Part shown: piece by piece, positions 58,881 through 63,672 of the stretch | How the letters are laid out: the number at the start of each line of letters is the position of its first letter | Numbering within the stretch: the stretch's first letter is position 1 | DNA from: Halorhodospira halophila | GTDB taxonomy: Bacteria > Pseudomonadota > Gammaproteobacteria > Nitrococcales > Halorhodospiraceae | Direction of reading: 5' to 3' | Length of the DNA stretch: 64,000 nucleotides | NCBI RefSeq assembly: GCF_016653405.1 | Contig: NZ_NHSN01000008.1 | Coordinates: 62,001-126,000, forward strand | The notes under the pieces: generated by a model | Told to the model about the DNA's origin: nothing | The model's database searches: none | What the model saw: the letters and a program-made list of their open reading frames with translations, nothing else | Translations under genes and position numbers: made by a program

Positions 58881-59375
58881 CTACAGGGTCAACTCGCGCG
58901 TCGCCACGATGACCCCGTCCTCGTCGGCGTAGAGCCAGTCGCCCGACTGGATCGTGGCCCCGGCGAAGGTCACCGAGACATCCCGCTCGCCCAGGCCCTT
59001 CTTCTGGCTCTTGAGCGGGTGGGTATTGAGCGCCTGGACGCCGAAGTCGATCTGCGCCAGCTCGGCGCTGTCGCGCACACAGCCGTAGATGACCGCCCCG
59101 GACCAGCCGTTATCCCGCCCCAGCGCCGCCAGCCGGTCGCCAAGCAGGGCGCACCGCATGGAGCCGCCGCCGTCGACCACCAGCACGCCGCCGTCGCCGG
59201 GCTCGCTGAGCAGCTCACGGACGCGGACGTTGTCCTCGAAGAGCTTGAGCGTGGTCACCCGGCCGCCGAAGCGGGTGCGCCCGCCGTAGCCGATGAGCAT
59301 CGGGTTCATCACGCGCAGCTGCACGCCCGGATCATCGGCGTGGGCATCACAGAGATCGGTGGTCAGCAGCGCCAT
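58881..59375 (-). CDS. rraA: RraA-family protein
   Basis: A 164-residue protein matching RraA ('MALLTTDLCDAHADDP', 'VVDGGGSMRCALLGDRLAALGRDNGWSGAVIYGCVRDSAELAQIDFGVQALNTHPLKSQKKGLGERDVSVTFAGATI' outline). RraA binds RNase E and inhibits it; related proteins are aldolases with Gly-Gly-Asp sites. Start ATG 59375 is chosen as the family start. Confidence 0.9.
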   Translation of the reverse strand: MALLTTDLCDAHADDPGVQLRVMNPMLIGYGGRTRFGGRVTTLKLFEDNVRVRELLSEPGDGGVLVVDGGGSMRCALLGDRLAALGRDNGWSGAVIYGCVRDSAELAQIDFGVQALNTHPLKSQKKGLGERDVSVTFAGATIQSGDWLYADEDGVIVATRELTL

Positions 59376-59462
59376 GGCGCCTCCTGTCGTGACTCCAACT
59401 GGCTGGTATGCGGGGTGTTGGTTTAAGGTAACCGTCTGAACGCCGACTGGGTACCGAGGGCC

Positions 59463-60425
59463 ATGAGCGCACAGCACGCAGCACACGCGCAAGCCGACAC
59501 CGTCGCCGCCCTGGGAGGGTATCTCACCGCCCTAGCCGAGAGCCACGGGCAGGAGGAGGTCGTGCAGACCCTCTGCGAGACCGCGGCCCGGCTGCTGCCG
59601 CGCAGTTCCGGCAAGCTCTGGCAGCTCGCCCTCGACCGCGAGGGCTGGTACCAAAGCGGCGGCTGGCAGGCCGGCGTCGTGCTTCCGCCCCAGGAGCGCT
59701 CCCTGCGCACGACGCTGCCGCGCGGCCCCACCGATGAGCTGCGCCTGCCCCTGCAGGCCCACGGCCTGACCGTCGCCGAGCTGCGCATCCCGTGCCCGGA
59801 GATCGAATCCGAGGCCGAGCAGGAGCTGCTGCGGAGCCTGGCCACCGCCGCAGCGATCAGCCTCTCCGGGCACGTCCTCAAGCGCCGGGTGCGCCACCGC
59901 AACGTCCGCGACCCACTCACCGGGCTGTTCAACCGGCGCTACCTGGAGGACACCCTGGAGCGTGAGCTCCACCGCGCCCGCCGCGTGAACGCCGGGCTGG
60001 TGCTGATCCGCCTGGAGGTGGACACCCTCGAGGCCTTCGCCGCCGAGCACGGCAGCGAGACCGCCGACCGGCTGCTGCAGGTGATGGCCGATGCCGTACA
60101 CCACGCCTTCCGCGGCTCGGACGTCTGCTGCCGGGCTGGTGACAACGGCTTCGGGATCCTGCTGCCCGACGCCAGCCTGGACAACGGCGCCATGCGCGCC
60201 GAGGCGGTCCGGGAGGAGCTGGCCGAGCTGCGCATCCACCAGCGCGGTCGCCCCCTCGGCCCGGTGACTGTCTCCGCCGGAGTCGCCGCCTACCCGGACC
60301 ACGGCAGCAACCGCGATCTGCTGCTCGAGGCGGCCGAGAGCGCGGTCACCTGCGCCCTCGACGAGGGCGGCGACCTGCTCCGCGTGGCCGAACTCATCGC
60401 GCCCCCGAACGCCAACCAGAACTGA
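59463..60425 (+). CDS. GAF-like/degenerate GGDEF protein
   Basis: A 320-residue protein. N-terminal GAF-like region (about 15-135), a short coiled linker and a GGDEF domain (about 148-312) with intact 'RDPLTGLFNRRYLEDTL' but the active-site loop reads GDNGF (226-230) instead of GGDEF. Loss of the catalytic Glu position argues against diguanylate cyclase activity; it may bind GTP or partners. It is upstream of the RuBisCO-like gene. Confidence 0.88.
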   Translation: MSAQHAAHAQADTVAALGGYLTALAESHGQEEVVQTLCETAARLLPRSSGKLWQLALDREGWYQSGGWQAGVVLPPQERSLRTTLPRGPTDELRLPLQAHGLTVAELRIPCPEIESEAEQELLRSLATAAAISLSGHVLKRRVRHRNVRDPLTGLFNRRYLEDTLERELHRARRVNAGLVLIRLEVDTLEAFAAEHGSETADRLLQVMADAVHHAFRGSDVCCRAGDNGFGILLPDASLDNGAMRAEAVREELAELRIHQRGRPLGPVTVSAGVAAYPDHGSNRDLLLEAAESAVTCALDEGGDLLRVAELIAPPNANQN

Positions 60426-60446
60426 CCGAACCGGAGAGGAACCACC

Positions 60447-61556
60447 TTGTCTGCCGAAACCCTGCGCGTCACCTACCACCTGACCTGCCGCCCCGGCGAA
60501 GACCCCCACGACAAGGCCAAGGGCATCGCCCTGGAGCAGAGCGCCGAGCTGCCCTCGCGCTGCATCCCGGCGCACGTCTACGACGACGTGGTGCCAACGA
60601 TCCAGGAGCTGACGGCCCTCGACGACGGTCGCCACCGCCTGGTCCTGGACTTCCCGGAGGCGATCACCGGTCTCGAGCCGACGCAGCTGATCAACAACCT
60701 GTTCGGCAACATCTCGCTCAAGAGCGGAATCCGCCTGGCCGACGTCGAGTGGACGCCCAACCTGCTGCAGGCCCTGGGCGGCCCGCGCTACGGCACCACC
60801 GGCGTGCGCGAGATGCTCGGCATCGCCGAGCGGCCGATGAGCTCTACGGCGCTCAAGCCCCTGGGGCTGGATACCGCCACGCTGGCCGGCTTCTGCGCCG
60901 ACTTCGCCCGCGGCGGCATCGACCTGATCAAGGACGACCACGGCCTTTGCGATCAGGACACCTCGCGCTTCGTCGACCGGGTGCAGGCGTGCCAGCAGGC
61001 CGTCAATGAGGTCAACGCCGAGACCGGCGGCCGCTCGCTCTACCTGCCCAACGTCACCGGGCCGCGCTGGGAGCTGGACAAGCGCCTGGACGCCGCCCAG
61101 GAGGCCGGCTGCAAGGCGGTGCTCATCTGCCCCTTCCTGACCGGCCTCGACGCACTGATCTGGGCCCGGGAGCGCTACGACATGGCGCTGATGGCCCACC
61201 CGGCCTTCGCCGGGGCCGTGGCCGGCGCCGAGCACGGCATCGACCCCGCCCTGCTGCTCGGCGAGATCACCCGGCTCTTTGGCGCCGATATGGTCGTCTA
61301 CACCAACGCCGAAGGGCGCTTCCCGACCTACGATCAGGCCCTGTGTGACCGCATCAACGACCGCCTGCGCCGGCCACTGGGCGACATCCGCCCCGCCCTG
61401 CCCACCCCGGGCGGCGGGGTCGACGCCGAGCGGGCGCCTTACTGGGCCGAGCGCTACGGCCCGGACGTCGTGCTGCTGATCGGCGGCAGCCTCTACGCCC
61501 AGGGCGACCGGGTCGCCGCGGCGCGCCGGCTGCAGGACGTGGTGGAGGGCCGTTAG
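60447..61556 (+). CDS. RuBisCO-like protein (form IV)
   Basis: A 369-residue protein of the RuBisCO large-subunit superfamily: N-terminal alpha/beta domain (1-110), then a TIM barrel with 'STALKPLGL' (Lys137) and 'GGIDLIKDDHGL' (162-165, KDDH instead of KDDE), and 'TPGGGV' and 'LIGGSLY' phosphate loops. Loss of the Glu and other carboxylase residues rules out CO2 fixation. With the adjacent cupin this fits the Rhodospirillum rubrum methylthio-xylulose pathway. It starts with TTG after GGAGAGG. Confidence 0.93.
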   Translation: MSAETLRVTYHLTCRPGEDPHDKAKGIALEQSAELPSRCIPAHVYDDVVPTIQELTALDDGRHRLVLDFPEAITGLEPTQLINNLFGNISLKSGIRLADVEWTPNLLQALGGPRYGTTGVREMLGIAERPMSSTALKPLGLDTATLAGFCADFARGGIDLIKDDHGLCDQDTSRFVDRVQACQQAVNEVNAETGGRSLYLPNVTGPRWELDKRLDAAQEAGCKAVLICPFLTGLDALIWARERYDMALMAHPAFAGAVAGAEHGIDPALLLGEITRLFGADMVVYTNAEGRFPTYDQALCDRINDRLRRPLGDIRPALPTPGGGVDAERAPYWAERYGPDVVLLIGGSLYAQGDRVAAARRLQDVVEGR

Positions 61557-61560
61557 CGGC

Positions 61561-62034
61561 ATGACCGGCGAGGAGCACGACGCCTCCCGCGTCCTGCGCG
61601 AGCAGGGCTACCGCTGGGAGGGCATCGAGGAAGAGGCCTACAAGGCGGAGGGCACCCACTTCAGTGGTGCCCGCCGCCAGACCCTGGTCGGCCGTCCGTC
61701 CGGGCAGGAGGCTCCGGCCTTCGAGACCCGCTACTTCGAGGTGGAGCCCGGCGGCTACACGACGCTCGAGCGCCACGAGCACACCCATGTGGTCATCGTG
61801 GTGCGCGGCCGCGCCGAGGTGGTCCTCGACAACCGGGTCGAGGTCGTCACCCCGCTGGATTGCGTCTACATCGCCCCGCGGGCCTGGCACCAGATCCACG
61901 CCACCGGCGGCGACGAGCCGCTGGGCTTTCTCTGCATCGTCGACCGCGACCGCGACCGCCCGCAGCGCCCGGATGGCGACGATCTGGCCGGACTCTGCGC
62001 CGAACCGGCGGTCGCCCGACGCATTCGCACCTGA
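61561..62034 (+). CDS. Cupin protein downstream of the RuBisCO-like gene
   Basis: A 157-residue single-domain cupin with metal-ligand His residues in 'ERHEHTHVVIVVRGRAEVVL' (His72, His74) and 'APRAWHQIH' (His110). In R. rubrum a cupin encoded beside the RuBisCO-like protein releases methanethiol from 1-methylthio-xylulose 5-phosphate, giving 1-deoxyxylulose 5-phosphate. Start 4 bp after the previous stop supports one operon; function inferred by analogy. Confidence 0.85.
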   Translation: MTGEEHDASRVLREQGYRWEGIEEEAYKAEGTHFSGARRQTLVGRPSGQEAPAFETRYFEVEPGGYTTLERHEHTHVVIVVRGRAEVVLDNRVEVVTPLDCVYIAPRAWHQIHATGGDEPLGFLCIVDRDRDRPQRPDGDDLAGLCAEPAVARRIRT

Positions 62035-62058
62035 AGCCACCGAGGCCCCGGACCCCCG

Positions 62059-63339
62059 TTGGAAGCGATTCCCGTCAGCCTGCTCTTCGCCGCCCTCGGC
62101 GGCCTGATCGTCCTCTCCGGCTGCTTTTCGGGCTCGGAGACGGCGCTCATGTCGCTCAACCGCTACCGCATGCGTCACCTGGCCAAGCAGGGCCATCGCG
62201 GTGCACGCATCGCCGAGCGGCTCCTGCAGCGACCGGACCGGGTCCTCGGGGTGATCCTGCTCGGCAACAACTTCGTCAACATCGCCGCCTCCTCCCTGGC
62301 GACGCTGATCGCCCTGCGCCTGCACGGCGAGAGCGCCATCGCCGTGGCCGCCGGCCTGCTGACGCTGGTGATCCTGATCTTCGCCGAGGTGGCACCCAAG
62401 ACGCTCGCCGCCGTCCATCCAGAGCGCGTGGCCTTCCCGGCCAGCTACGTGCTGTGGCTGCTCCTGCGCCTGCTCTACCCCCTGGTCTGGCTAGTCAATG
62501 CGGCGGCGAACGCCCTACTGAGCATCGTCCGGGTGCGGGTCGAGGACGTCAGCGCCGCCGAGCTCAGCCAGGAGGAGCTGCGCACCGTCGTCAACGAGGC
62601 CGGCAACATGATCCCCCGCCGCCACCGGCACATGCTGGTGAGCATCCTCGACCTGGAGGAAGCGACGGTGGAGGACATCATGATCCCGCGCACGGAGATC
62701 GTCGGCATCGACCTCGACGATCCGTGGCCGGAGACCCTGGAACGGCTGACCAACAGCCAGTACACCCGCATGCCCGTCTACCGCGGCACGGTGGACCACG
62801 TCCTGGGGTTCGTGCATGTGCGCCGGATCGTCGGCGACCTGGTCCGCGGCAGCTTCACGCCGGAGGACCTCCAGGCCCGGCTGCACGAGCCGTTCTTCAT
62901 CCCGGAGGGCACCGGGCTGCACACCCAGCTGTTGAAGTTCCAGCGCCAGCGCGAGCGCGTCGGGCTGGTGGTGGACGAGTACGGCGAGATCCTGGGCCTG
63001 GCGGCCCTGGACGATATCCTCGAGGAGATCGTCGGCGAATTCACGACGGATCCGGGCACGCTGACCCGCTCGATCACCCGGCAGGAGGATGGAACCTATC
63101 TGGTCGAGGGCAGCGCGACGATCCGGGAGCTGAATCGGGTGCTGGGCTGGGAGCTGTCGACCAGCGGGCCGAAGACCCTGAACGGGTTGATCCTCGAGCG
63201 GCTGGAGACCATCCCCGAGGCGGGCACGAGCCTGCTGATCGACGGTTATCCGGTGACCATCGTGCAGACCCAGGGCAATCGGGTGAAGACGGCGGAGATC
63301 CAGCCGGAGCGCCCGCCCTCGGTCCGGCGCGAGTCGTAG
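62059..63339 (+). CDS. HlyC/CorC (CNNM)-family membrane protein with CBS domains
   Basis: A 426-residue protein: DUF21/CNNM membrane domain with four helices (about 5-190, 'SGSETALMSLNRYRMRHLAKQG'), two CBS motifs (about 205-330, 'MIPRTEIVGIDLD' and 'VVDEYGEILGLAALDDILEEIVGE') and a CorC-HlyC domain (about 345-420). Starts with TTG. Related to CorB/YfjD, linked to Mg2+/Co2+ transport. It follows the cupin gene by 24 bp. Confidence 0.9.
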   Translation: MEAIPVSLLFAALGGLIVLSGCFSGSETALMSLNRYRMRHLAKQGHRGARIAERLLQRPDRVLGVILLGNNFVNIAASSLATLIALRLHGESAIAVAAGLLTLVILIFAEVAPKTLAAVHPERVAFPASYVLWLLLRLLYPLVWLVNAAANALLSIVRVRVEDVSAAELSQEELRTVVNEAGNMIPRRHRHMLVSILDLEEATVEDIMIPRTEIVGIDLDDPWPETLERLTNSQYTRMPVYRGTVDHVLGFVHVRRIVGDLVRGSFTPEDLQARLHEPFFIPEGTGLHTQLLKFQRQRERVGLVVDEYGEILGLAALDDILEEIVGEFTTDPGTLTRSITRQEDGTYLVEGSATIRELNRVLGWELSTSGPKTLNGLILERLETIPEAGTSLLIDGYPVTIVQTQGNRVKTAEIQPERPPSVRRES

Positions 63340-63342
63340 CGC

Positions 63343-63672
63343 GCCCGCGGCCACCCCGCCCGCCGGCGGGCCTCGGGCGATGTGCAGGGCTGCCGCTTTG
63401 TGGGGCCTGCCGCCGCGCATTTGGGCGCGCCGAGCCGCGCAGCCCCGACGGGGGGTGAGCGCGAACCTTTACCGGTTCGCGCTCATCAGCGAGGTCTTGT
63501 CCGAGCGGCGCGTTAGCGCCGCGAGTTGAGCGAGCGGCCCCGGCGGGGCGAGCAGCGCAGGGGACCCCGCCGCAGGCGGGGCGCGCACATCCGCGCGGCG
63601 GCAGGCCCCACAACGCGGCAGCTTCCGTCTCCAACCTCACCAAACCCGCCGGCGGGCGGGGTGACCGCGGCC
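63343..63672. repeat. Large imperfect palindrome (panhandle) with internal hairpins
   Basis: The 351-bp gap 63340-63690 has no gene but forms one large inverted structure. The outer arms, 63343-63370 and 63645-63672, are near-perfect complements, as are the inner arms, 63390-63418 and 63593-63621 (29 bp, one mismatch). The centre holds a 12-bp hairpin (TGAGCGCGAACC with its complement, 63456-63485) and the small GGCGC-GTTA-GCGCC hairpin near 63507-63520. This could be a MITE-like element, a long structured RNA or a repeat family member. Confidence 0.75.

Follow-up and report, generated by a model that had tools for sequence, protein, structure and literature searches.

The isomerase and cupin steps of a shunt that links methylthioadenosine (MTA) to isoprenoid synthesis have been demonstrated for R. 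rubrum and R. palustris, where they are carried out by a RuBisCO-like protein (RLP) and a cupin, respectively (PMC4958253, PMC5893883). In R. rubrum, the cupin Rru_A2000 is described as the methylsulfurylase; the accessible text names an MTA phosphorylase as the first enzyme and adenine as the sole purine identified (PMC4958253). The R. palustris protein RLP1, for which the term DeepYkr is used, is reported to be the shunt isomerase in vivo and in vitro, and at least 25 species are listed as carrying the shunt set, including putative MtnP and MtnA (PMC5893883). Loss of the RLP or the cupin is reported to leave R. palustris mutants able to grow on MTA (PMC5893883), which means that the pair may be dispensable. 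A different start to MTA degradation, described as unusual, is found in Pseudomonas aeruginosa, which uses an MTA deaminase and a methylthioinosine phosphorylase (PMC6302742). Five candidate species that lack Dxs and have both proteins have also been put forward, with the proposal, said by its authors to need further testing, that the shunt may take the place of Dxs (PMC10663253). The RLP and cupin of H. halophila were named in 2016 as a possible anaerobic salvage pathway (PMC4958253). The route is thus known from related bacteria and was already predicted for Halorhodospira; the present analysis adds a probable correction of its entry.

An RLP gene and a cupin gene four bases apart

The window analysed here, a stretch of 64,000 nucleotides (G000:C8:62001-126000), comes from a genome of 2.86 Mb that is 99.86% complete. 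It contains a gene for a form IV RLP of 369 residues with a TTG start (60447..61556, forward strand), predicted to be a 5-methylthioribulose-1-phosphate 1,3-isomerase. A likely ribosome-binding site, ggagagg (60433..60439, forward strand), was read from the sequence seven bases ahead of the start codon. Four bases separate the RLP stop from the ATG of a cupin of 157 residues (61561..62034, forward strand), which homology to Rru_A2000 (3jzv) and 3ibm predicts to be a 1-methylthioxylulose-5-phosphate methylsulfurylase. Pfam recognised RuBisCO_large in the first protein (78.2 bits, cut-off 30.1) and Cupin_2 in the second (49.4 bits, cut-off 27.2).

The pair has conserved neighbours on both sides. 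A GGDEF (diguanylate-cyclase-type) gene (59463..60425, forward strand) lies upstream of the RLP gene and recurs at the RLP locus in six of the eight other genomes of the genus, and a CNNM/CorC-type membrane protein gene (62059..63339, forward strand) lies downstream of the cupin gene and is found there in all eight. At lower identity, the GGDEF gene also occurs in the RLP locus of several other genera. The gaps between the four genes, 21, 4 and 24 bases in order, suggest that they form one transcript. A scan of positions 59300-63600 found no sigma-70 promoter by consensus and three terminator-like matches (0.7 expected), two of them overlapping within the cupin gene and one within the CNNM gene; for RNA switches, no Rfam match in the window reached the gathering score. 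In a complete genome of the same genus (G006), the RLP is 97% and the cupin 88% identical. The nearest RLP overall in a quick tree of 95 rows is from an Ectothiorhodospiraceae bacterium, and, among named species, H. abdelmalekii and H. neutriphila have the nearest.

The RLP groups with 3qfw, presumably R. palustris RLP1

Aligned against its own genome's form I RuBisCO, the RLP shows four altered motifs: KDDE has become KDDH (K162-D-D-H165, codons at 60930..60941, forward strand), KPKLGL has become KPLGL, HIHRA has become MAHPA and GKLEG has become EGRF. The RLP retains the carbamate-site lysine and the aspartate that follows it, with histidine in place of glutamate, and it lacks the second lysine of KPK and has proline for arginine in HIHR and arginine for lysine in loop 6. 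KDDH at residues 162-165 was invariant in all 11 aligned RLPs. Judged by these residues, the RLP should be no carboxylase.

The best match among solved structures was 3qfw (249.5 bits), with lower scores for an MtnW enolase (142.4 bits) and the photosynthetic-type 2qyg (99.5 bits). We assume that 3qfw is R. palustris RLP1 and that 1tel is the RLP of Chlorobium tepidum. In an IQ-TREE tree of 61 rows, which is rooted on 1tel alone, a long row, a branch with support of 100/98 parts the window RLP and its kin from MtnW and 1tel; within this clade, the window RLP falls in the cupin-partnered part together with 3qfw (97/90). The 95-row tree recovered the same wider RLP clade. Seven near-duplicate or partial rows had been dropped before the 95-row tree was made and a further 34 of the 95 before the 61-row tree, and the R. 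rubrum RLP is absent from both. Its grouping with 3qfw places the RLP in the DeepYkr clade.

Two other memberships were considered and rejected. The best NCBIfam family for the RLP is the MtnW-type enolase, with a score of 177.8 bits against a cut-off of 409, and TIGR03332 gave 140.8 against 513.6; with model scores so far under the cut-offs and a position outside the MtnW branch, the RLP was not assigned to MtnW. It was not assigned to the photosynthetic IV-Photo clade either, as 1tel lies outside the RLP clade in both the 95-row and the 61-row trees. The first-pass annotation had described an RLP with a cupin following at 4 bp and the carboxylase residues lost, and had named clustering with IV-Photo as one outcome that would refute a shunt. 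The two open reading frames and both Pfam matches confirm the arrangement, the alignment bears out the loss, and the form IV tree groups the RLP with 3qfw and with RLPs that have a cupin partner, away from the photosynthetic-type 1tel.

A phmmer search of the PDB with the cupin returned 3ibm (309.8 bits), then Rru_A2000 (3jzv; 113.9 bits, E 5.5e-32) and 3kgz (105.1 bits). 3ibm presumably comes from H. halophila; the window cupin equals it at 135 of 155 residues, and the cupin of G006 equals it at 153 of 155. Histidines 72, 74, 76 and 110 and Cys125 were invariant in 12 of 12 sequences. The four conserved histidines are compatible with a metal site, and Cys125 is perhaps a reactive thiol.

Entry probably runs through methylthioinosine

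The early genes are unlinked to the RLP–cupin pair, which is on contig C8. The sole mtnA-family match of the genome (441 bits, cut-off 279) is on contig C9 and the sole PNP_UDP_1 match on contig C1. The latter passed the model for S-methyl-5'-thioinosine phosphorylase (372.5, cut-off 223) and fell just under the cut-off of the MTAP model (272 against 274.85). Among solved structures, the closest to it is 3ozb (262 bits; the next scored 162.7), which is filed as a methylthioadenosine phosphorylase and which we take to be the P. aeruginosa methylthioinosine enzyme. Both proteins have Asn-x-Ala at the site occupied by Asp-Tyr-Asp in the MTA phosphorylase 9vs8. A motif scan of the 30 phosphorylase loci fetched, of 39 matches, found Asn-x-Ala or Asn-x-Gly in 25, Asp-x-Asp in one and no pattern match in four (L044, L070-L072).

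Divergent from mtnA is a gene for a hydrolase of 441 residues. It passed the PRK09045 model (699.9 bits, cut-off 540), which is titled only TRZ/ATZ family hydrolase, and its fourth-best solved relative, 4f0r (446.5 bits), is titled 5-methylthioadenosine/S-adenosylhomocysteine deaminase. It scored below the NCBIfam cut-offs for both MTA/SAH deaminase (237.8 against 779) and 5'-deoxyadenosine deaminase (318.4 against 522). A homologue adjoins mtnA in 12 of the 12 mtnA loci fetched (24 genomes have mtnA). The hydrolase is therefore a putative MTA deaminase, on the basis of its family and one solved relative. Given this family and the match to 4f0r, the adjacency to mtnA, and the model score and motif of the phosphorylase, the pathway is probably entered by an MTA deaminase and then a methylthioinosine phosphorylase, not by MtnP. 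Because the RLP and the cupin are the defining steps, the phosphorylase falling under the MTAP cut-off points to a different entry, not to loss of the shunt. The early enzymes thus lie outside the window, as the first-pass annotation had stated; of the two genes it named for a search, mtnA was found, and in place of mtnP there is a phosphorylase of the methylthioinosine type. The genome also has an O-acetylhomoserine sulfhydrylase (660.1 bits, cut-off 495.1). Its presence carries little weight, because 26 of 30 relatives also pass the cut-off and all 30 have some match, with or without the pair.

The RLP and the cupin very probably carry out the isomerase and methylsulfurylase reactions of an MTA–isoprenoid shunt of the R. 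rubrum type. That arrangement, also proposed at first pass, is supported by the tree, the homology to Rru_A2000, mtnA, the sulfhydrylase and the lack of a detected rival exit. From the genes, homology, tree position, linkage and absence of a rival gene that we observed, we infer the reactions, metal, thiol and flux as follows. MTA, a by-product of SAM use, would be deaminated to methylthioinosine, which would be phosphorolysed to 5-methylthioribose-1-phosphate and converted by MtnA to 5-methylthioribulose-1-phosphate. The RLP would isomerise this (1,3-isomerisation) to 1-methylthioxylulose-5-phosphate, from which the cupin, assisted by a thiol, for example glutathione, would remove the methylthio group, finally giving methanethiol and 1-deoxyxylulose-5-phosphate (DXP). 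Methanethiol could return to methionine via O-acetylhomoserine sulfhydrylase, and the DXP of the shunt would add to that made by Dxs.

The pair and mtnA occur together

Two other known exits were searched for. Aldolase_II, the family of MtnB, Ald2 and others, had no match in the window's genome or in the other eight of the genus, and ARD (mtnD) had no match in the window's genome and none over the cut-off in 30 relatives, where a single weak match fell short of it. Because no gene of the mtnB/ald2 type and no mtnD is detectable in the genome, the pair would be its only known exit after MtnA. Aldolase_II matches are present in 15 of the 30 relatives overall, so the missing alternative exit applies to the genus, not to the order.

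The RLP, the cupin and mtnA are found together in 24 of 30 relatives, the same 24 for all three, and all three are missing from five genomes, all of genus g10. One further genome, G009 (81% complete), brings the number with an RLP match to 25, but its match is just a fragment at the end of a contig. As the cupin was found in 24 of 30 relatives and the RLP was present in each of these, the pairing of the two is beyond chance. In G020, the RLP is split over two frames near residue 280 (L036:1501-2585), reflecting either a pseudogene or a sequencing error.

In a class-wide sample of 321 genomes, 19 matched the RLP profile with an E value no higher than 1e-50. Two of these matches (about 1e-51) adjoin ARD and fall with MtnW in the 95-row tree, one of them also in the 61-row tree; the remaining 17 have E values not exceeding 1.8e-100. 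The 17 genomes that carry these RLPs all have mtnA, compared with 198 of 321 overall (Fisher P 0.0004, kinship ignored), and none has ARD over the cut-off (one weak match below), compared with 70 of 321 (Fisher P 0.03, kinship ignored). Eight of the 17 RLPs have an adjacent cupin, five are fused to one, two are accompanied by a split transketolase and two have neither. Because these last two kinds are included, mtnA accompanies the wider RLP family and not the cupin type alone.

RLP partners at other loci

Partners were counted at 94 loci, comprising the best 80 of 208 confirmed relatives in named genomes and 14 class loci, with the MtnW-like L212 and L213 excluded (94 of 96). In this set of the best 80 of 208 plus 14, a cupin lies within 400 bases downstream of the RLP at 46 loci and shares one open frame with it at ten, making 56 with a cupin beside or fused. 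The C-terminal half of a transketolase lies upstream of the RLP at 27 loci, together with the N-terminal half at 24 of them; one locus has a cupin 1.8 kb upstream, and ten, some of them at contig ends, have neither partner. Cupin and transketolase were found together at none of these 94 loci.

The fusions (L166, L180, L187, L199, L203, L215, L223, L224, L226 and L227) are chains of about 500-565 residues from Planctomycetota, Fibrobacterota, KSB1 and some gammaproteobacterial genomes; Pfam confirmed both domains in all three tested of the ten. Such fusions speak for consecutive action of the RLP and the cupin, and they would allow both steps to be studied in a single chain. We found no description of them in the accessible parts of the literature searched, where the fusions discussed concern other proteins. 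At two of 16 class loci, the RLP gene follows ispD, ispF and truD and precedes surE (L214:3111-6709; L215:1473-7493). The RLP of L215 is a cupin fusion, and its isp neighbours belong to the pathway that DXP feeds.

An example of the second kind of partner is found in Thiorhodococcus mannitoliphagus, where a split transketolase (TktN, TktC) precedes the RLP with no cupin nearby (L177:3947-7152); Pfam confirmed the two transketolase halves. The transketolase-partnered RLPs form a sister clade, and the distribution of cupin (fused included) versus transketolase requires a single change on both trees. Among the 27 transketolase loci (from the best 80 of 208 plus 14 class loci), eight, rhizobial and Brucellaceae, have an mtnA homologue upstream; the one tested passed the mtnA model with 436.7 bits. 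The presence of a transketolase in the cupin's place suggests a second use for the same kind of isomerase product. Our guess is a thiamine-dependent cleavage of that product to glyceraldehyde-3-phosphate, perhaps with loss of methanethiol. No cluster of RLP and split transketolase is named in the available text of the literature searched, including PMC7895386, PMC8307300 and PMC6302742. This clade and the RLP–cupin fusions are testable leads supplied by relatives of the window genome.

Some relatives with the pair lack a recognisable dxs

The window's genome has dxs (836.8 bits) and is not a dxs-less case. In nine of 30 relatives, no dxs match exceeds the cut-off (G001, G011, G013, G014, G016, G017, G023, G025 and G029). 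G001 has a broken copy (441.5 bits); the other eight all have the RLP, cupin and mtnA, and completeness is 90% or higher for six of them. The dxs-less call was made for G013, G014, G016, G017 and G029 and is less sure for G011, G023 and G025. Because G025 has a divergent dxs-like match (173 bits), its dxs may be odd and not absent. Among the 24 relatives that are at least 90% complete, dxs over the cut-off is missing in 6 of 19 with the RLP and cupin and in none of five without, numbers too few for an association of dxs loss with the pair to be more than suggestive.

We sampled G016, a single contig of 3.97 Mb, in 60 stretches totalling 1.2 Mb (30%). The sample contained ispH, 63% identical to that of E. 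coli; dxr, ispD, ispE, ispF and ispG were not found in this 30%, and hisS occurred without ispG in the same stretch. With ispH present and no dxs over the cut-off, G016 would seem to run a MEP pathway that lacks dxs. Should dxs-less carriers of the pair truly depend on DXP from the shunt, all of their isoprenoids would be fed by a by-product of SAM metabolism. A broader proposal is that the route is a true source of DXP in the order, fed by MTA and, through the RLP without the cupin, by 5'-deoxyadenosine, and that it is auxiliary in Halorhodospira, where dxs is retained, and the sole entry to the MEP pathway in relatives that have the pair and mtnA without dxs. We regard this as speculative and somewhat unlikely in its entirety.

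Alternative explanations

One possible explanation is that the DXP is of no weight, the pair serving as detoxification that discards MTA as methanethiol while dxs supplies the isoprenoids. The dxs gene of this genome (836.8 bits) is consistent with this explanation, as is the release of methanethiol by R. palustris (PMC5893883). An O-acetylhomoserine sulfhydrylase is there for re-use, though it is matched in 30 of 30 relatives regardless of the pair, and pair-bearing relatives without dxs over the cut-off exist, one of them with ispH; we consider detoxification a substantial possibility that falls short of the favoured one. It is also possible, but rather doubtful, that the main or a second substrate is 5-deoxyribulose-1-phosphate derived from 5'-deoxyadenosine, a waste product of radical SAM enzymes. 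By its structure, this compound would yield DXP itself through the same 1,3-isomerisation, so that the RLP alone would suffice and the cupin would serve the MTA branch only. MtnA is also listed as a 5-deoxyribose-1-phosphate isomerase (PMC10986504), in M. jannaschii 5'-deoxyadenosine is described as being handled by the phosphorylase and isomerase (PMC6302742), and an Aldolase_II gene, the known outlet for 5-deoxyribulose-1-phosphate, was not found in the window's genome. However, the cupin beside or fused to the RLP at 56 of 94 loci (the best 80 of 208 plus 14 class loci) speaks for a methylthio substrate, and the accessible portions of the literature searched contain no report of an RLP converting 5-deoxyribulose-1-phosphate.

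The remaining two explanations are already contradicted. That the RLP acts like photosynthetic-type RLPs, in a stress response or sulfur oxidation, with the cupin an unrelated sensor beside it by chance, might be expected of a host that is probably a phototrophic sulfur bacterium, given its kinship with Halorhodospira, a genus with that lifestyle. The tree contradicts it, with 1tel outside the clade; the score of 3qfw (249.5 bits) exceeds that of 2qyg (99.5 bits), and the RLP retains its cupin in 24 of 30 relatives and forms one chain with it at other loci, which makes this explanation highly improbable. Even less credible is an MtnW-type enolase of oxygen-dependent methionine salvage: this is the best NCBIfam family at 177.8 bits, but the scores are far under the cut-offs (409, and 513.6 for the 140.8 of TIGR03332), the RLP lies outside the MtnW branch and the genome has no ARD or Aldolase_II match. 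The R. rubrum-type shunt is thus the reading that we prefer.

Comparison with known systems

The favoured reading would place an oxygen-independent salvage route that releases methanethiol in a halophilic genus, with an alternative, deaminating entry. We did not find a methylthioinosine entry combined with the isoprenoid shunt in the literature searched; the available text of PMC6302742 treats the two apart. For H. halophila, the accessible text of PMC4958253 covers the RLP–cupin pair only, without the early enzymes of the genus. MtnW (YkrW) resembles the window RLP in having a RuBisCO fold and acting downstream of MtnA, but differs in having KDDE (2oek) where the RLP has KDDH, in its tree branch and in its reaction. 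Similar to the P. aeruginosa route, the phosphorylase passes the methylthioinosine model and has the Asn-x-Ala of 3ozb, and the hydrolase belongs to the family of 4f0r; unlike in that route, the deaminating entry would feed an RLP and a cupin. The closest likeness is to the shunt of R. rubrum (RLP Rru_A1998, cupin Rru_A2000) and R. palustris (RLP1 RPA2169, cupin RPA2170), in which, as in the window, the cupin adjoins the RLP. Shared features are an RLP of the 3qfw clade, mtnA, an O-acetylhomoserine sulfhydrylase and the absence of a detected mtnB or mtnD. The window's genome differs from R. palustris in having no Aldolase_II gene and thus no Ald2 shunt of the kind described there (PMC5893883), and it differs from both species in its entry, which is probably deamination followed by phosphorolysis of methylthioinosine instead of MtnP.
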